Made by a program: the position numbers and the translations under genes
NCBI RefSeq assembly: GCF_963676935.1
Contig: NZ_OY781470.1
Span: forward strand, 558,001 to 622,000
From: Halarcobacter sp.
GTDB lineage: Bacteria; Campylobacterota; Campylobacteria; Campylobacterales; Arcobacteraceae
DNA: 64,000 bases
Direction: 5' to 3'
Part shown: in pieces, positions 54,899 through 63,555 of the stretch
Numbering within the stretch: the stretch's first letter is position 1
Layout: each line of letters starts with the position of its first letter
The notes under the pieces: model-generated
What the model saw: only the letters and a program-made list of their open reading frames with translations
The model's database searches: none
Told to the model about the DNA's origin: nothing

Positions 54899-57340
54899 GT
54901 GGCTAATGTTAAGTGCAATCACTGTCATTTAGAGTTTGATGAAAAAGTGATGATTAAAGAAGGAGATCTAAACTTTTGTTGTAAAGGTTGTCAAGGAGTC
55001 TTTCATATTTTAAAAGATGATGGGCTTGATTCTTTTTATGAAAAGCTTGGAAATAAAACTATTGCTCCACCTATTGAAACTAACGATGATATCGAAAGGT
55101 TTGATACAAAAAGCTTTGAAGATACTTTTATTAAAACTACCAACGATGGATACAGACAAATTGATTTAATCATTGAAGGAATTCATTGTGCTGCTTGTGT
55201 ATGGTTAAATGAAAAAGTGCTTTTTGAAACAGATGGAATTATAAGTGCAGATATAAATTTTACAAATAATAAAGCAAAAATTATTTGGGATGAAGAAAAA
55301 ATTAAATTATCTGAAATAATTTTAAAAATTAGAAGTATTGGGTATAACGCATATGCATATGATGCAACTGTAGCAGATGAACAAGCTGTAAAAGCTAAAA
55401 GGGATTATTTTATCCGTATGATGGTTGCAGTTTTTGCAAGTGTTAATATTATGATGCTAGGAGTTGCAAAATATACTGGATTTTTTACAGGAATTGATGA
55501 TGAGATTAAAGAATATATCCATTTAGGAGAATTTATATTCTCTACACCAGTTTTATTTTATTCTGGATGGATATTTTTCCGTGGTGCATATTTTGGTTTA
55601 AAGAATCGTATTTTAAATATGGACTTTTTAGTTAGTTCCGGAGCTACTTTTACTTATATATACTCTTTATTTATTCTATTTGGTGGAAAAGGGGAGAGTT
55701 ACTTTGATTCTGTAACAATGATTATTACCTTTGTATTAGTTGGAAAATATTTAGAAGTCATTGGTAAAAAAAGTGCAGTTGATACTTTAGACAAAATAAA
55801 AAGCTCAATACCTTTAGAGGCAACTGTAGTTGAGGATGGTATAAAAAAAGCTATTGCACTGGATAATATTAAAGTTGGAGATGTTGTTGAGATTAGAAGT
55901 GGTGAAAAAGTTTGTATTGATGGTAAAATCATTAGTGGTGAAGGAACTTTTGATGAATCAAGTCTTACAGGAGAATCCTTACCAATATTTAAAAAGCAAG
56001 GGGATGTTTTATATAGTGGTACAATAAACAATGACTCTTTGATTAGATATGAAGTTACCAAAACATATAAAGATTCAACTTTAAATTCAATTGTTACTTT
56101 ATTAGAAGATTCATTAAGTTCAAAACCTGAGATTGAATATAAAGCAAATGAGATATCAAAAGGATTTACTTTAACAATAATCTCTTTATCTATATTAACT
56201 TTTATAGTATGGTATTTTTTTGGTATAGATTTAGGTTTTGATTACGATAATACAAACCATTTTGAGAAATCTTTTATTGTAGCTATTTCAGTAATAGTTA
56301 TTGCTTGTCCATGTGCTTTAGCTCTTGCTACACCAATTGCCAGTTTGATTGGTATTTCCGAACTTGCAAAAAAAGGTTTACTTTTTAAAGAGGCTAAGTT
56401 TATTGAAACTATGGCTAAAGCAGATACTTTAGTGATGGATAAAACAGGAACAATTACAAAAGGTGAACTAAAAGTTAAAAAGGCAAGAATTTTAGATAAT
56501 AATATTCATAAATTGAATCTTATGTATTCTTTATTAGATTCTTCAACCCATCCAATTTCAAAATCAGTGAAAAAATATTTAGCTAATAAATATTCAAATC
56601 TTGAATTGAAAAATATCTATGATGTAAAAAGTGTTCAAGCAAAAGGTGTAGTTGGAAAATATAAAAATATTGAAGATAAAACTTTTCATCTTTTAGGTGG
56701 GAATATAGAATTACTAAAAGAGAATAGAATAAACTATAATTTTGATAGTTCAAGTTCAGTTTATATTTTTGCTATAAATAGAAAGGTTATTGCAACTTTT
56801 GAATTAGAAGATGAGATTAGAGAAGATGCTAAAGATTTAATTGATAGTATAAAACAAAGTGGTCTTAATATTGTGATGCTTACAGGTGACAACGAAAGTG
56901 TAGCAAAAAAAGTTGCAGCAAAAGTTGGGATTAAAAGTGTTATTTCCGGAATAGACCCAATAGGTAAAGCAAATTATATTAAAAAGTTAAAAAGTGAAGG
57001 AAAAACTGTTGTAATGGCAGGAGATGGTATTAATGATTCAGTTGCACTTGCTAGTTCTGATTTATCAATTGCTATGGGTAATTCTGCTGATATTACTATT
57101 TCTGTTTCAGATATAGTTTTATTAAATAGTTCATTAAGTAGTTTAAAATATGCATTTATAATTTCAAAAAGAACATATAAGTTTATAAAACAAAACTTGC
57201 TATTATCTTTGATTTATAATTCTATTACAATCCCTTTAGCTATGGCTGGATATGTTATACCATTAGTTGCGGCACTTTCAATGAGTTTAAGTTCTCTTCT
57301 TGTTGTTGCAAACTCTATGAGAATTAAACTAAAAAATTAG
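54899..57340 (+). CDS. ccoI: copper-transporting P-type ATPase for cbb3 oxidase
   Basis: CcoI/FixI exports copper for cbb3-type oxidase assembly. The start is GTG at 54899 with TAGGAAA upstream. The 813-residue protein has an N-terminal cysteine-rich part (CNHC...CCKGCQ), a metal-binding domain with GIHCAACVW, eight predicted helices, CPC in IACPCALALATP, DKTGTITKGE as phosphorylation site and GDGINDS. The Cys-rich N-terminus and the adjacent ccoS mark the FixI type rather than a detoxifying CopA. Confidence 0.93.
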   Translation: MANVKCNHCHLEFDEKVMIKEGDLNFCCKGCQGVFHILKDDGLDSFYEKLGNKTIAPPIETNDDIERFDTKSFEDTFIKTTNDGYRQIDLIIEGIHCAACVWLNEKVLFETDGIISADINFTNNKAKIIWDEEKIKLSEIILKIRSIGYNAYAYDATVADEQAVKAKRDYFIRMMVAVFASVNIMMLGVAKYTGFFTGIDDEIKEYIHLGEFIFSTPVLFYSGWIFFRGAYFGLKNRILNMDFLVSSGATFTYIYSLFILFGGKGESYFDSVTMIITFVLVGKYLEVIGKKSAVDTLDKIKSSIPLEATVVEDGIKKAIALDNIKVGDVVEIRSGEKVCIDGKIISGEGTFDESSLTGESLPIFKKQGDVLYSGTINNDSLIRYEVTKTYKDSTLNSIVTLLEDSLSSKPEIEYKANEISKGFTLTIISLSILTFIVWYFFGIDLGFDYDNTNHFEKSFIVAISVIVIACPCALALATPIASLIGISELAKKGLLFKEAKFIETMAKADTLVMDKTGTITKGELKVKKARILDNNIHKLNLMYSLLDSSTHPISKSVKKYLANKYSNLELKNIYDVKSVQAKGVVGKYKNIEDKTFHLLGGNIELLKENRINYNFDSSSSVYIFAINRKVIATFELEDEIREDAKDLIDSIKQSGLNIVMLTGDNESVAKKVAAKVGIKSVISGIDPIGKANYIKKLKSEGKTVVMAGDGINDSVALASSDLSIAMGNSADITISVSDIVLLNSSLSSLKYAFIISKRTYKFIKQNLLLSLIYNSITIPLAMAGYVIPLVAALSMSLSSLLVVANSMRIKLKN

Positions 57341-57615: not shown

Positions 57616-57897
57616 TTATTTAAATGCAGCAATTTGTTTAGCTAAATCTTCAATATCTGCATCTGAAAGTCTTGCAACTTGACCTTTCATTACACCTTTC
57701 ATAGCTCCACCATAAGAACCATCTTTATAACCTTTAAGTGCAGCAACAGTTTTTTCAACTGGCCAACCTTTAATTACTTGAGATTTTCCTAATGCTGGTT
57801 TTTCAGCAGTTGCCCCATGACAAGTAGCACATGTAGCATAATTTGCAGCCATTAAAGATGCAGCAGCAAGTATTGTTCCTAAAACAATTTTTTTCAT
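57616..57897 (-). CDS. monohaem cytochrome c, c553 type
   Basis: The 93-residue protein has a signal peptide (MKKIVLGTILAAASLMAA) and the haem site CATCHG (about 22-27), with Met in KGVMKGQ as likely sixth ligand. It is a periplasmic electron carrier, probably donating electrons to the cbb3 oxidase whose assembly genes are next to it. It is a short class I cytochrome. The start has GGAGAG upstream, and the gene converges with ccoS. Confidence 0.93.
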   Translation of the reverse strand: MKKIVLGTILAAASLMAANYATCATCHGATAEKPALGKSQVIKGWPVEKTVAALKGYKDGSYGGAMKGVMKGQVARLSDADIEDLAKQIAAFK

Positions 57898-58066: not shown

Positions 58067-58681
58067 ATGAATACAAATGATACAGTATTAAAAATAGAAG
58101 ATTTAAATTTTGGATATGATAAAAACAAGTTAATTTATAAAAATTTTAATTTAGAATTAAAAAGAGGAAAACTTATTGCCATTGTGGGTAGCAGTGGAAG
58201 TGGAAAGAGTACTCTTTTTGAATTAATAACAAAAAATTTAAAGCCATTAAATGGAACTATTGATGTAAAAAAAATAAGTTCTATCTATCAAGATCCATAT
58301 AGTTCTTTTCATCCATCTTTTACAATTATAGAACAGATAAATGATGTAATAAATTTTAATAAAGAAAATATTGAAAATGAGATAGAAAAAAATATTAAAT
58401 TATTAAATTTACATAAGAATTTTTTATATAAAAGACCACATGAATTAAGTGGAGGACAACTACAAAGATGTTCTATTCTTAGAGCACTTTTGATGAAACC
58501 AGATTTATTACTTGTAGACGAAGCAACATCAGCATTAGATAACATAGTTGCAGTTGATGTTATGAAACTAATTGTAAACCAACTAAATAACTGTGGAATT
58601 TTACTTATTACTCACGATATGAGTTTAGCTAAATGGTGTAGTGATGAGCTTATTGATTTAAATAAAATTATGGAGAAATAG
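58067..58681 (+). CDS. stand-alone ABC ATP-binding protein, peptide/nickel-importer type
   Basis: The 204-residue ATPase has Walker A GSSGSGKST (about 43-51), Q-loop YQDPYSSFHPSFT, signature ELSGGQLQRCS and Walker B LLLVDEATSALD. The Q-loop phrase QDPYSSFHP resembles DppF/OppF/NikE ATPases, which usually are longer, so the C-terminal part is missing. No permease gene is nearby. It leads an operon with hemH and the AmmeMemoRadiSam genes, sharing one base with hemH. Confidence 0.85.
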   Translation: MNTNDTVLKIEDLNFGYDKNKLIYKNFNLELKRGKLIAIVGSSGSGKSTLFELITKNLKPLNGTIDVKKISSIYQDPYSSFHPSFTIIEQINDVINFNKENIENEIEKNIKLLNLHKNFLYKRPHELSGGQLQRCSILRALLMKPDLLLVDEATSALDNIVAVDVMKLIVNQLNNCGILLITHDMSLAKWCSDELIDLNKIMEK

Positions 58682-59620
58682 ATGATTAAAGAGTGTAAAA
58701 AAGCTTTAGTTTTATTAAATATGGGTGGAGCACGAAATAAAGATGAGCTAGAGATGTTTTTAACAAATATGTTTAATGATAAAAATATCTTAACTATAAA
58801 AAGTGACTTTTTTAGATCTTTAATTGCAAAATTTATTGTAAGTAGCAGAAAAGATTCAGCTTGGAAAAATTATGAAGAGATTGGAAATAGATCACCAATT
58901 AATCCCCTGACAGAGAAATTAGTTTCTAAATTAAATGATGAATTTGAAGATATATGTGTAGTTCAAGTTATGAGATATACTCCACCTTTTGCAAGTGAAG
59001 TTGTAAAAGAACTTGAAAAGAAAAAGGTAAAAGAGGTAATACTTTTTCCAATGTATCCTCAGTATTCAACCACAACAACTAAGTCTTCAGTTGAAGATTT
59101 TATTGAGTATTCAAAAAGAAAATTTCATATTGAGGTTATAGAGCCTTTTTATAAAAATAGAATATTTAATGAGGCTATTATCGATACTATTAAAAATAGT
59201 GTAGAAAACTATAAAGAGTATAATTTGATCTTTTCAGCACATGGTTTACCTCAGAAAATTGTAGATAAGGGAGATCCTTATGAAAAACAAATTAATGAAC
59301 ATGTTGATATTTTGTCAAAAATTTTAGAAGAATATAATATTGATTTCAAATCTATATCTTTGGCTTATCAATCTAAAGTAGGTCCTATGAAGTGGTTAGA
59401 ACCCTCTTTAGATAGTGAATTAACTAAATATAGAAATCAAAAAGTATTAATATATCCAATTGCTTTTTTAATAGATAATTCAGAAACAGATTTTGAATTA
59501 AGTATTGAATATAAAGAGGAAGCTGATAAGATAGGAGTATTAGATTATAAAGTTTGTAAATGCTTAAACAGTGATGAAAAGTTTATTAAAGCGATAAAAG
59601 ATATTATAAAAGATAAATAG
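58682..59620 (+). CDS. hemH: ferrochelatase
   Basis: HemH inserts ferrous iron into protoporphyrin IX. The 312-residue protein has NMGGARN near the start, RYTPPFASEV, the YPQYSTTTT segment, the active-site His in FSAHGLPQKIVDKGDPY and the later QSKVGPMKWLEP with a conserved acidic residue at FLIDNSETDFEL. It lacks the cysteine cluster of animal enzymes. It begins with the base after the ABC ATPase stop, so it is coupled with it. Confidence 0.95.
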   Translation: MIKECKKALVLLNMGGARNKDELEMFLTNMFNDKNILTIKSDFFRSLIAKFIVSSRKDSAWKNYEEIGNRSPINPLTEKLVSKLNDEFEDICVVQVMRYTPPFASEVVKELEKKKVKEVILFPMYPQYSTTTTKSSVEDFIEYSKRKFHIEVIEPFYKNRIFNEAIIDTIKNSVENYKEYNLIFSAHGLPQKIVDKGDPYEKQINEHVDILSKILEEYNIDFKSISLAYQSKVGPMKWLEPSLDSELTKYRNQKVLIYPIAFLIDNSETDFELSIEYKEEADKIGVLDYKVCKCLNSDEKFIKAIKDIIKDK

Positions 59621-59628
59621 GATAAATA

Positions 59629-60186
59629 ATGGATGAAAAAAATAAAGTATTATTAGAACTTGCAAGAAAATCAATAGAATCAGTTTTTGATGAAAACATT
59701 AAAATAGATAAAGATACTTTATTAAATAAATTTACCTTTTTAAAAGAGATTGAAGCATCCTTTGTTACTTTAACAAAAGATGGACAATTAAGGGGCTGTA
59801 TAGGTTCATTAGTTGCCCATAGAATCTTATTGGAAGATATTATTCATAATTCAAAAGCTGCAGCTTTTAATGATCCAAGATTTACCCCTTTAGATAAAGA
59901 TGAGTATAAACAGATAAAAGTTGAGATTTCACTTTTAACAAAACCTGAACTTTTAAAATATAGTGATTTTAAAGACTTAGAAGAAAAACTAATTCCCAAC
60001 AAACATGGTGTGATATTAGAACTTGATGGGAAAAGGGCAACTTTTCTACCACAAGTTTGGGAACAATTACCCAACTTTAATGACTTTATGGTTCATTTAT
60101 GTAGAAAAGCTGGATTAAATCCCTCTTCTTTATCTGCTTTACCAAAAATTTTTATTTATGAGGCAATAAAAATAAAAGAGGATTAA
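59629..60186 (+). CDS. AmmeMemoRadiSam system protein A (AMMECR1 family)
   Basis: The 185-residue protein has the conserved family signature LRGCIGSL (about 47-54), and the related phrases NDPRFTPL, VEISLL, HGVILE and TFLPQVWEQ. Its structure in other organisms is a single domain of unknown function. It begins 8 bases after hemH and ends one base before the radical SAM gene. The three-gene combination with radical SAM and Memo proteins is known from many microbes, but its product is not. Confidence 0.93.
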   Translation: MDEKNKVLLELARKSIESVFDENIKIDKDTLLNKFTFLKEIEASFVTLTKDGQLRGCIGSLVAHRILLEDIIHNSKAAAFNDPRFTPLDKDEYKQIKVEISLLTKPELLKYSDFKDLEEKLIPNKHGVILELDGKRATFLPQVWEQLPNFNDFMVHLCRKAGLNPSSLSALPKIFIYEAIKIKED

Positions 60187-60187
60187 A

Positions 60188-61189
60188 ATGCAATATTTCA
60201 AAACCTCAAACACTAACCCCGATAAAAAAACTTGTCTTTTATGTTCATATTATTGTGATTTAAAAGAGGGACAAATTGGAATTTGCGGAGTTAATAAAAA
60301 TACTGGTGAAAAAATTGAATGTTTAGTATATGGGCATATTAGTGCATTTAATATTGACCCAATAGAAAAAAAACCTCTTTATCATTTTTTACCCAATTCA
60401 AAATCACTATCACTTGGAACAGTAGGTTGTAATTTCCATTGTAATTTTTGTCAAAATCATGGGATTTCCCAAGAGAAAAAGATAGATAAATCAAATTATA
60501 TATCTGCAAAAGATGTTGCACAAATAGCGAAACAAAGATTATGTAAATCTATATCTTATACATATAATGAACCAACAATTTTTTACCCCTTTGCAAAAGA
60601 TATTGCAATTGAAGCAAAAAAGTTTGGTATAAAGTCAGTATTTGTAAGTAATGGCTTTGAAAGTAAAGAGATAATAGATGATATGGTTGGGGTTATTGAT
60701 GCTATAAATGTTGATTTAAAATCTTTTAATCATAAATATTATAAATCAAACTTAGGTGGGAATTTAGATCAAGTTTTATCCAATATTATAAGATTGAAAA
60801 AGAATAAAATTTGGCTTGAGATCACAACACTTTTGGTACCTAGTAAAAATGATTCAGAAGAAGAGATTAGAAAGATTGTAAAATTTATAAAAGATAATTT
60901 AGGAGTTAATACTCCTTGGCATATTTCAGCTTTTCATCCGGATTACAAAGAGTTAAATCTTCCAAGAACCTCTTTTGAAAAGCTTAAAATGGCATATGAT
61001 ATTGCAAAAAATGAGGGTTTATTATATGTGTACATTGGTAATATAGGCTTTCCAAATAACACTTATTGCCCAAAATGTAATACTAAGTTAATTAGTAGAG
61101 AGTACTTTAATGTACTTGATAATAAATTAACATCGAGTTTTTGTCCAGAGTGTAATACAAAAATAGATGGAATATTTGAAGGAGAATAG
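60188..61189 (+). CDS. AmmeMemoRadiSam system radical SAM enzyme
   Basis: The 333-residue enzyme has the radical SAM cluster motif CNFHCNFC (CxxxCxxC, about 77-84) and the glycyl-radical-activator-like flow of sequence (SYTYNEPTIF, DLKSFNH, ITTLLVP). An N-terminal cysteine pair region CLLCSYYC...ICG (about 16-33) and a C-terminal zinc-ribbon-like CPKC...CPEC add two more metal sites. It is in the middle of the three-gene system. The reaction is not known. Confidence 0.93.
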   Translation: MQYFKTSNTNPDKKTCLLCSYYCDLKEGQIGICGVNKNTGEKIECLVYGHISAFNIDPIEKKPLYHFLPNSKSLSLGTVGCNFHCNFCQNHGISQEKKIDKSNYISAKDVAQIAKQRLCKSISYTYNEPTIFYPFAKDIAIEAKKFGIKSVFVSNGFESKEIIDDMVGVIDAINVDLKSFNHKYYKSNLGGNLDQVLSNIIRLKKNKIWLEITTLLVPSKNDSEEEIRKIVKFIKDNLGVNTPWHISAFHPDYKELNLPRTSFEKLKMAYDIAKNEGLLYVYIGNIGFPNNTYCPKCNTKLISREYFNVLDNKLTSSFCPECNTKIDGIFEGE

Positions 61190-61990
61190 ATGACTAGTAG
61201 AGAGATGGCCGTAGCAGGTAGCTTTTATCCAGATAGTAATAAAGAGATAAATAGATTTATTGAACATTTTAATAAAAGTTTTAGTATTAAAGAAGATAAG
61301 CTAAAAATAAATCCTAAAGCTATAATCTCTCCTCATGCAGGATATATTTATAGTGGTTTTACTGCCAATTTAGCATACAATCTTTCATCAAGTAATAATA
61401 TTAAAAGAGTGATTATAATTGGACCCTCACACAAAGTTTATCTTGAAGGTGCTTCTATTGCATTATATGATAATTACAAAACACCTTTAGGTGATCTACA
61501 GATAGATTTTGAGTATTCAAATAATTTAAAAAACAAATTTAGTTTTTTAGATTTTAATAAAGAGGTTCATAAAGAACACTCTACAGAAACTCAAGCTCCT
61601 TTTGTAAAAAACTATTTCAAAGAAGCAAAAGTTATAGAGATAGTTTATGGTAAGTTAGATTTTAATCAATTATCACTACTAATAGATGAATTACTTTTTG
61701 ATAAAGATAATTTTATAGTTATTAGTACTGATTTAAGTCATTTTTATACACTTGAAGAGGCAAAAAAGTTAGATAATATATGTCTTAATGCAATTGCAAA
61801 TAAAGATTTAAATATGTTTGATAAAGGTTGTGAAGCATGTGGAAAAGTGGGTGTGAAGGCCATGATAAAATCTGCTATTAAATATAATTTAGATACGAAA
61901 CTTTTATATTATTGCACAAGTTATGATAGAACAAAAGATGATAAAAGCGTAGTTGGTTATGCTTCTGCCTTGATTGGGGAAAAAATTTAA
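61190..61990 (+). CDS. AmmeMemoRadiSam system protein B (Memo family)
   Basis: The 266-residue protein has the Memo/dioxygenase-like fold motifs ISPHAGYIYSGFTA (about 46-59), GPSHKVYL, KEHSTETQAPF and STDLSHF, with three histidines that would form a metal site. The C-terminal part has GCEACGKVGVKAM. It starts with the base after the radical SAM gene stop. Memo proteins bind copper or iron in other organisms; the role in this system is not settled. Confidence 0.92.
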   Translation: MTSREMAVAGSFYPDSNKEINRFIEHFNKSFSIKEDKLKINPKAIISPHAGYIYSGFTANLAYNLSSSNNIKRVIIIGPSHKVYLEGASIALYDNYKTPLGDLQIDFEYSNNLKNKFSFLDFNKEVHKEHSTETQAPFVKNYFKEAKVIEIVYGKLDFNQLSLLIDELLFDKDNFIVISTDLSHFYTLEEAKKLDNICLNAIANKDLNMFDKGCEACGKVGVKAMIKSAIKYNLDTKLLYYCTSYDRTKDDKSVVGYASALIGEKI

Positions 61991-62758
61991 ATGTTATTTT
62001 TTATTAAGAAAGCTGTTTCTTTATTTATTATGCCTTTATCTATCTCTCTTATATTGTTTTTCTTTGGACTATTTTTTCTTTTTATCAGTAAATATAAAAA
62101 AGCAAAACTCTTTATCTCAATAGGATTTGTTTGGCTACTTTTAATCTCATATGCGCCCTTTGCTAATAGTTTAATAAAACCTTTAGAGACTAAATATAAA
62201 TCATATATCAACATAGATTCAAATATAAAATATGTATTGGTATTAGGGAATGCACATAGTACTAATTCTGATATTTCAGAAGTATCACAACTTTCTAATA
62301 CGGCTTTAAAAAGATTATCTGAAGGTATTAGAATATATAAAAAGTTAAACAGTTCTAAACTAATTGTTTCAGGATATGCTGGAGATGACAAGTTGACTCC
62401 CCATGCACTAATTGCAAAAAATGCAGCTATTTCTCTAGGCGTACCAATCAAAGATATATTAACTCAAGAAAAAGCAAAAGATACAATTGAAGAAGCAGAA
62501 TATTTAAAAAAATCTATAGGGGATGAAAAATTTATTTTAGTTACAAGTGCTTCTCATATGCCAAGAGCAATAAAAATCTTTAAATCAGAAGGTTTAAATC
62601 CAATTCCTGCACCAACTGAATTTTCTTATAAAGAAAATATAGATTATTTAACTTTCCCTAAAGTTACATATATGAACAAAACTACCCTTGCTTTTCACGA
62701 ATATATAGGTACTTTTTGGTTTGAGATTGTAAGATTATATAGACTTTATCTAAATTGA
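61991..62758 (+). CDS. YdcF/ElyC-like DUF218 membrane protein
   Basis: The 255-residue protein has two membrane helices (about 12-33 and 41-62) followed by a DUF218 domain with VLVLGNAH (about 78-85), SGYAGDDKLTPHA, EKAKDTIEEAEYLKK and LVTSASHMPRA. ElyC, the E. coli member, affects envelope sugar or peptidoglycan synthesis. It directly follows the Memo gene. Function in this operon is unknown. Confidence 0.85.
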   Translation: MLFFIKKAVSLFIMPLSISLILFFFGLFFLFISKYKKAKLFISIGFVWLLLISYAPFANSLIKPLETKYKSYINIDSNIKYVLVLGNAHSTNSDISEVSQLSNTALKRLSEGIRIYKKLNSSKLIVSGYAGDDKLTPHALIAKNAAISLGVPIKDILTQEKAKDTIEEAEYLKKSIGDEKFILVTSASHMPRAIKIFKSEGLNPIPAPTEFSYKENIDYLTFPKVTYMNKTTLAFHEYIGTFWFEIVRLYRLYLN

Positions 62759-62763
62759 TAAGT

Positions 62764-62778
62764 GATTATAGTATAATC
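62764..62778. promoter_or_regulatory. inverted repeat before the zinc-type ABC operon
   Basis: GATTATA-G-TATAATC is a perfect 7-1-7 inverted repeat that also contains a TATAAT -10 element, 28 bases before the ATPase start. Such a shape resembles metalloregulator (Zur-like) operators, so repression by metal is possible. Confidence 0.5.
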
Positions 62779-62805: not shown

Positions 62806-63555
62806 ATGAATAAATTAATAGAAATTAAAAATATCTCATATAGTTATGATACATCAAGTGTTTTAGAAAATATAAATTTAGATATTTTAGAAAATGATTT
62901 TTTAGCTATTATTGGTCCAAATGGTGGAGGTAAATCAACACTGTTAAAACTAATTTTAGGATTATTAAAAACAAAAAGTGGAATTATCACTAAAGGTTTA
63001 AAAAATGATCTAATAGGTTATGTTCCTCAAAATACAAATTTGAATACTGATTTTCCTATAACTGCTTTAGAAGTAGTTTTAATGGGACATAAAATTACAA
63101 AGAAAAAATTATTTGGTTACAGTAAAGAAGATATCTCTTGTGCTATGGATTCTTTAAAAAAAGTTGATATGGAAAATTTTGCAAATAGCAAAATAGGAGA
63201 TTTAAGTGGAGGTCAAAGACAAAGAGTTTTTATTGCACGTGCACTTTGTACAAATCCTAAAATAATGCTTTTAGATGAGCCCACTGCAAGTATTGATGTA
63301 AAAGGACAAAAAGAGATATATGAACTACTTAAACAGTTAAATAAAACTATATCAATAGTTGTAGTAAGTCATGATATTTCAATTTTATTAAATTATGCAA
63401 AAAATGTTGCCCATATTAATAAAAGATTAGTTTATCATCATTTAAAAAATAACACTAGCAACACTGTTGATATAGATAAAGAGCATCTTTGTGAAGTTGA
63501 ACTTCTTTCAGCTCTTGGCAAAACAGAAATATGTTGTAACCATACACACAATTAG
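62806..63555 (+). CDS. znuC: zinc/manganese-type ABC transporter ATP-binding protein
   Basis: The 249-residue ATPase has Walker A GPNGGGKST (about 38-46), Q-loop VPQNTN, signature LSGGQRQRV and Walker B IMLLDEPTAS. The VVLMGH phrase is common in ZnuC/MntB-type ATPases. The C-terminus has a Cys/His tail (CEVELL...CCNHTHN) that might sense or bind zinc. The permease gene begins 7 bases later. The substrate-binding protein is not in the window. Confidence 0.85.
   Translation: MNKLIEIKNISYSYDTSSVLENINLDILENDFLAIIGPNGGGKSTLLKLILGLLKTKSGIITKGLKNDLIGYVPQNTNLNTDFPITALEVVLMGHKITKKKLFGYSKEDISCAMDSLKKVDMENFANSKIGDLSGGQRQRVFIARALCTNPKIMLLDEPTASIDVKGQKEIYELLKQLNKTISIVVVSHDISILLNYAKNVAHINKRLVYHHLKNNTSNTVDIDKEHLCEVELLSALGKTEICCNHTHN

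Follow-up and report, generated by a model that had tools for sequence, protein, structure and literature searches.

Adenosine triphosphate-binding cassette (ABC) importers of the Opp/Dpp/Nik type, such as DppABCDF and NikABCDE, combine a binding protein of the SBP_bac_5 family, DppB- and DppC-type permeases and DppD/NikE-like ATPases, and their genes usually form a single operon, yet this arrangement is unnecessary for function. Multitask ATPases, the genes of which lie away from those of their permeases, are also known, with MsmX as the case treated in PMC7658222. Another described system, AmmeMemoRadiSam (AMR), has three members recognized by the models TIGR04335, TIGR04336 and TIGR04337; Memo-Ammecr1 systems are the subject of a 2019 dioxygenase-superfamily paper cited by PMC7159879 and PMC7694686. 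The literature searched names no settled product for AMR, in agreement with the original prediction made for the locus described here. This locus is a block of six genes at positions 58067-62758 of a 64,000-nucleotide stretch of a Halarcobacter sp. genome (contig NZ_OY781470.1, positions 558,001 to 622,000; hereafter, the window), in which a gene for a short ABC ATPase is followed by genes for ferrochelatase (hemH), the three AMR proteins and an ElyC/YdcF-type protein. It is very likely that this ATPase is the motor of a dispersed Opp/Dpp/Nik-type importer encoded for the most part elsewhere in the genome, and that the six genes make up a probable operon, limited to Arcobacteraceae among the loci read, rather than a single machine. 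No published description of the dispersed importer was found in the literature searched, which lacked most subscription journals.

Proposed importer components encoded singly and inherited together

The window genome encodes DppB- and DppC-type permeases and an SBP_bac_5 protein without an ATPase gene alongside, ATPases being recognized here by similarity to the window protein (46 matches with E <= 1e-8, a set that need not include every ABC ATPase of the genome). Among 27 matches to the permease domain BPD_transp_1, 25 lie within 6.7 kb of one of the 46 ATPase matches, including the Yej permeases, for which the ATPase is 6-7 kb away. For the remaining two, the distance to any ATPase match exceeds 18 kb: a DppB/NikB-type permease (L164:5168-6142; G and L numbers are our handles for genomes and loci) encoded between acpS and panC, with the nearest ATPase match at 34 kb, and a DppC/NikC-type permease (L168:5623-6462) encoded beside rsmD, with the nearest match at 18.6 kb. 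Three SBP_bac_5 proteins are present, one within the Yej-type cluster (L134), one among signalling genes (L135) and one (L133:4743-6242) that stands alone beside the gene for ribosomal protein S9 (rpsI), a gene that is also near its orthologues at three loci of other genomes (L223, L224, L234). The assignments of the functionally unrelated neighbours acpS, panC, rsmD and the S9 gene are each above a cut-off. The lone binding protein is related to proteins that bind oligopeptides, nickel and haem: its best match of solved structure is AppA, which binds oligopeptides (E 2.5e-79), and haem-binding protein A and DppA are also among its solved relatives.

Across 397 Campylobacterota genomes, orthologues of the ATPase are found in 150, and the binding protein is present in exactly the same 150, so that the two agree in 397 of 397. 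The DppB orthologue occurs in 149 genomes, 148 of them shared with the ATPase (148 of the 151 that have either). The AMR system, represented by Memo (AmrB) in 148 genomes, 30 of these in Arcobacteraceae, matches the ATPase less well: both are found in 120 genomes, the ATPase only in 30 and AMR only in 28. The boundary between orthologues and paralogues was placed at a jump in E-value, from 1.7e-91 to 4.0e-65 for the binding protein and from 1.1e-77 to 2.0e-55 for DppB; genomes with weaker binding-protein matches (E >= 4e-65) and 18 genomes with weaker DppB matches (E 2e-55 to 9e-46) were treated as carrying paralogues. The ATPase orthologues reach E 9.9e-57, and no further matches are listed up to the limit of 1e-38.

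Because the genomes share ancestry, weight is placed on joint absence and on switches within genera rather than on these totals. Of the 81 Arcobacteraceae genomes sampled, 74 carry both the ATPase and DppB, and four, all of one genus (G399, G407, G415, G421), lack both. Loci from two of these four (L147, L148) retain the cytochrome c gene, hemH, amrA and amrS-amrB, with the ATPase gene missing before hemH. In one genus, G364 has the ATPase, DppB and the binding protein, and G139, G250, G251 and G313 have none of the three; in another, G116, G163 and G368 have all three parts and G307 has none. Since the binding protein and DppB track the occurrence of the ATPase, including its absence, the most plausible interpretation is that the latter powers an importer with dispersed genes. 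The DppC-like permease is assigned to this importer by elimination only, the co-inheritance being that of the ATPase, DppB and the binding protein.

In the proposed mechanism, a small ligand, either similar to a peptide or a metal chelate, would be bound by the periplasmic protein encoded next to the S9 gene and delivered to a channel formed by the DppB/DppC pair, with two subunits of the short ATPase as the motor of this channel. We infer the physical assembly of these components, the ATPase homodimer and the nature of the substrate. HemH would make haem separately from the importer, and the AMR proteins would constitute a separate, mobile cassette.

When the ATPase and DppB are encoded on one contig (65 genomes), the minimum distance between them is 35 kb; for the ATPase and the binding protein (61 genomes), it is 121 kb; and DppB and the binding protein (67 genomes) are within 10 kb of each other only in G381. 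In these genomes, the genes for the ATPase, DppB and the binding protein are not arranged in one operon, and G381 is the single case with two parts within 10 kb.

Several observations weigh against this assignment. The ATPase occurs without DppB in G239 and G389, and DppB without the ATPase in G358; three fragmented genomes of the family sample are also discordant, G405 and G438 with DppB only and G433 with the ATPase only. Much of the split into 150 and 247 genomes runs along family lines, and the 397 genomes therefore represent far fewer independent observations. Dispersal is incomplete in some genomes: the distance between the starts of the DppB and binding-protein genes is 5.6 kb in G381 and 21-23 kb in G008, G276 and G187. 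The ATPase gene directly precedes hemH in 67 of the 75 Arcobacteraceae genomes of the sample that carry it, an adjacency that could reflect real coupling. Two ATPases are the rule in known Opp/Dpp/Nik systems, and one is found here; for the Dpp system of Helicobacter pylori, a published description names two. Finally, a polar-amino-acid-type permease and its binding protein (L167:4764-6143) are likewise encoded without an adjoining ATPase gene, the ATPase match nearest to the permease (L167:4764-5417) being 3.8 kb away in a different cluster. Together with the lone DppB/DppC pair and the precedent of multitask ATPases, this last observation would be compatible with a short ATPase that serves several importers lacking their own motor, in the manner of MsmX. 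However, the ATPase shows a nearly exact match in occurrence to DppB and the binding protein, as fits a dedicated partner, and its family is of the Opp/Dpp type rather than the sugar or polar amino acid type, so that a multitask role appears unlikely.

Completeness and family of the short ATPase

The best profile hidden Markov model (HMM) match of the ATPase is NikE, with no equivalog cut-off reached among the 25 matches listed, and among solved structures it matches best the C-terminal part, or second half, of the dipeptide-transport ATPase DppD (E 7e-42); the peptide/nickel-type label given to it originally is appropriate. The protein carries the Walker A, Q-loop, signature, Walker B and H-loop motifs. 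In an alignment of 51 sequences including that from the window (longest open frames of 188-234 amino acids (aa), two frames outside 180-260 aa being omitted), 11 of the 12 residues checked are present in all 51 and T49 in 50. Because the motif residues are kept across this alignment, the protein is a complete short Opp/Dpp/Nik-type ATPase.

The original prediction had called it truncated and an orphan. The former description is contradicted by the similar length and complete motifs of the 51 sequences, which come from several families; the latter holds insofar as no Opp-type permease gene is nearby, but the occurrence of the ATPase follows that of the dispersed importer parts. Decay of a gene left over from a peptide/nickel operon that was lost would account for the length of 204 aa, for this missing permease gene and for the lack of an oligo_HPY match in the protein (the only such match in the window genome, 32 bits against a threshold of 27.1, is located elsewhere). 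The conservation of length and motifs, however, together with 50-70% identity to the window protein in nearly all of the 150 genomes, makes the leftover explanation extremely improbable, and a truncated relic is ruled out by the alignment.

Other candidates for partners of the ATPase were considered and discarded. At one locus (L117), a 473-aa frame over the ATPase resembled a fusion; inspection by eye indicates proA-like DNA in another frame, not a partner. ProA and the tautomerase-like and dUTPase-like proteins encoded next to the ATPase in other families were considered as permeases, which they are not; the tautomerase and dUTPase matches fall under curated cut-offs.

The six-gene block of the window

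The six open reading frames are those originally predicted, in the same order, and are arranged head to tail on one strand; they are listed here with their neighbours.

58067..58681, + strand: short ABC ATPase (nucleotide-binding domain), 204 aa, Opp/Dpp/Nik type, by HMM matches, DppD as best solved match and ABC motifs
58682..59620, + strand: hemH, ferrochelatase, 312 aa (TIGR00109)
59629..60186, + strand: amrA, AMMECR1 family (TIGR04335)
60188..61189, + strand: amrS, radical SAM enzyme of the AMR system (TIGR04337)
61190..61990, + strand: amrB, Memo family (TIGR04336)
61991..62758, + strand: ElyC/YdcF-type (DUF218) envelope protein
62806..63555, + strand: znuC-type Zn/Mn ABC ATPase, by HMM match and position, starting 47 bases after the sixth gene
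57616..57897, - strand: small cytochrome c gene, divergent and upstream of the ATPase gene, used as control neighbour
54899..57340, + strand: heavy-metal P-type ATPase, conserved upstream neighbour, which we take to be CcoI-like

The ferrochelatase match scores 281 bits, the cut-off being 125, and AmrA, AmrS and AmrB are all above the curated cut-offs and adjacent. The sixth protein is above the cut-off for DUF218 and slightly below that of the ElyC model (203 bits against 205). The intergenic gaps are 0, 8, 1, 0 and 0 bases; the gaps of up to 8 bases noted originally are therefore correct, but with the start codons chosen here none of the six genes overlap. This spacing suggests that the six genes probably form one operon, and the znuC-type gene would probably belong to a separate transcription unit. 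A scan of the window for promoters and terminators finds sites that are not more numerous than in shuffled sequence. By eye, a TATAAT at 62772-62777, just 5' of the znuC-type gene, might be a promoter of its own; the consensus scan finds no + strand site at this position.

Gene neighbourhoods and the link to haem

Gene order was compared at all 30 AMR loci of Arcobacteraceae (the window and 29 others, that is, all AMR genomes of the family), at 51 AMR loci outside the family (from 46 of 118 AMR genomes) and at 20 ATPase loci outside it (from 20 of 107 genomes), with loci interrupted by contig ends retained in all counts. Within the family, hemH is before amrA in 19 of the 30 genomes; in one more, G134, hemH and amrA are together and amrS-amrB elsewhere (L042, L141). 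Outside the family, hemH is found within about 7 kb of AMR at none of the 51 loci. A survey of named records, limited to the best 80 of 348 AmrS loci and including shortened ones, detects hemH beside AMR in 16 of the 80. These 16 records carry genus names of Arcobacteraceae or unplaced titles (e.g., Campylobacterales), except for one titled Sulfurospirillum (L185); the best named AmrS matches, which place the window genome in Arcobacteraceae, are from Halarcobacter, Arcobacter, Malaciobacter and Aliarcobacter, mostly metagenome-assembled. Six AMR records are on plasmids of other phyla (38-42% identity), and of the two neighbourhoods viewed, one is unannotated and the other lists no hemH within 5 kb. 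The hemH-amrA order is a trait of Arcobacteraceae and not, as the original prediction allowed for, peculiar to the window genome.

The AMR genes themselves vary in arrangement. Of the 30 family genomes, 12 have amrA next to amrB with no amrS in the sequence covered, and at 4 of the 80 AmrS loci (L180, L182, L217, L232) neither amrA nor amrB was found. In five family genomes, a single frame of about 520-605 aa contains both the AmrS and the AmrB match (L038, L046, L049, L050, L056), and other families have long Memo frames (about 480-500 aa) with both AmrA and AmrB matches. The importer binding protein is encoded 2.6-5.8 kb from amrS at 4 of the 80 AmrS loci (L223, L224, L234, L235). As the gene for S9, its usual neighbour, lies between the two (together with that for L13) in three of these four, the proximity is interpreted as chance rather than as a link between the binding protein and AMR.

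Outside Arcobacteraceae, the ATPase gene follows proA at 14 of the 20 loci examined, and neither hemH nor AMR is near it at any of them. A tautomerase-like gene adjoins the ATPase gene both at L122, from another family, and at L141, from G134 in Arcobacteraceae, which hints that the proA setting is older than the hemH setting. The tightness of the latter was gauged at the 33 family loci with the ATPase (the other 13 of 46 loci, with no ATPase in the stretch read, being omitted), using the cytochrome c gene as a control because it is divergent and cannot share the ATPase transcript. Here hemH follows the ATPase gene at 31 loci, the divergent cytochrome c gene is upstream at 29 and the metal P-type ATPase gene at 26, so the adjacency of the ATPase and hemH is hardly tighter than expected from conservation of the block. 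With no case near hemH among the 51 AMR loci and the 20 ATPase loci from other families, synteny was rejected as general evidence for a haem link.

These counts bear on a functional haem/metal module, in which the ATPase would import haem, a tetrapyrrole precursor or a metal chelate and would be coupled through the operon to ferrochelatase and to AMR proteins handling iron or a metal cofactor. The frequent ATPase-hemH adjacency within the family, the conserved metal P-type ATPase and cytochrome c neighbours, the haem-binding protein A and DppA among the relatives of the binding protein and the metal-ligand residues of AmrB described below are all compatible with such a module. Against it stand the absence of hemH near the ATPase and near AMR at the loci read in other families, the near-equal retention of the cytochrome c gene and hemH, for which block conservation can account, and AppA, a binder of oligopeptides, as the best solved match to the binding protein; we therefore consider the module quite unlikely. 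A bolder proposal retains the four-gene dispersed importer with its phylum-wide co-inheritance and adds that in Arcobacteraceae the ATPase was recruited into the haem/AMR operon because what the importer carries (haem, a tetrapyrrole precursor or a metallophore) would contribute to iron handling, in which HemH and an AmrB that binds iron would also take part; this, too, is unlikely. The role in metal or cofactor handling that had been deduced from the neighbours is only partly supported: it is in keeping with the AmrB residues, but the gene order is limited to one family and the ATPase tracks a dispersed importer.

Conserved residues of the AMR proteins and ferrochelatase

In AmrA, R55, G56, C57 and G59 are present in 48 of 48 sequences and I58 in 47. 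The radical SAM triad of AmrS (C81, C85, C88) is found in all 37 sequences aligned, as are the additional cysteines C16, C19, C23, C33 and C294, with C297, C319 and C322 conserved in 36; these eight extra cysteines could form an additional cluster and zinc sites. HemH has H187 and E268, presumably the catalytic residues, in 34 of 34 sequences. The window genome also encodes a second, full-length HemH (G000:C1:2147174-2148097, L132) that is 49% identical to that of the window; two hemH matches are found in 25 of the 81 family genomes, the second being partial in G426.

The residues H49, H81 and C217 of AmrB are conserved in 68 of 68 sequences. Human MEMO1 has three iron/copper ligands, according to an eLife 2024 article (PMC11081632), and H49 and H81 align with two of these. 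The third ligand of AmrB is probably Cys217, which is matched to C244 of MEMO1 by order and motif, outside the alignment. Because AmrB keeps these MEMO1-like residues, a metal role for AMR is possible; the operon of the window does not show it. With the extra AmrS cysteines, these residues leave room for a metal site but do not point to a product.

Implications and comparison with known systems

Assigning a lone ABC ATPase to its system is difficult, and neighbours alone would mis-assign the ATPase of the window to haem. Occurrence matching over the 397 genomes names likely partners, and the present case may serve as a test case for importers that are scattered and jointly inherited. In this phylum, the AMR system can hardly be interpreted from its operon context, and beyond one family hemH loses weight as an indication of what AMR does.

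With respect to AmmeMemoRadiSam systems elsewhere, the three proteins of the window offer nothing new, and it is the hemH/ATPase context, seen in one family only, that sets them apart. AmrB shares the positions of H49 and H81 with human MEMO1 as presented in PMC11081632, its own metal binding being putative. The proposed importer has the same kinds of components as DppABCDF and NikABCDE, but these are encoded singly and far apart, and one short ATPase without an oligo_HPY tail is found. It resembles MsmX-type systems in that the ATPase gene is located away from those of its permeases; however, MsmX serves many sugar importers, as stated in PMC7658222, whereas the short ATPase has one partner set with matching occurrence.

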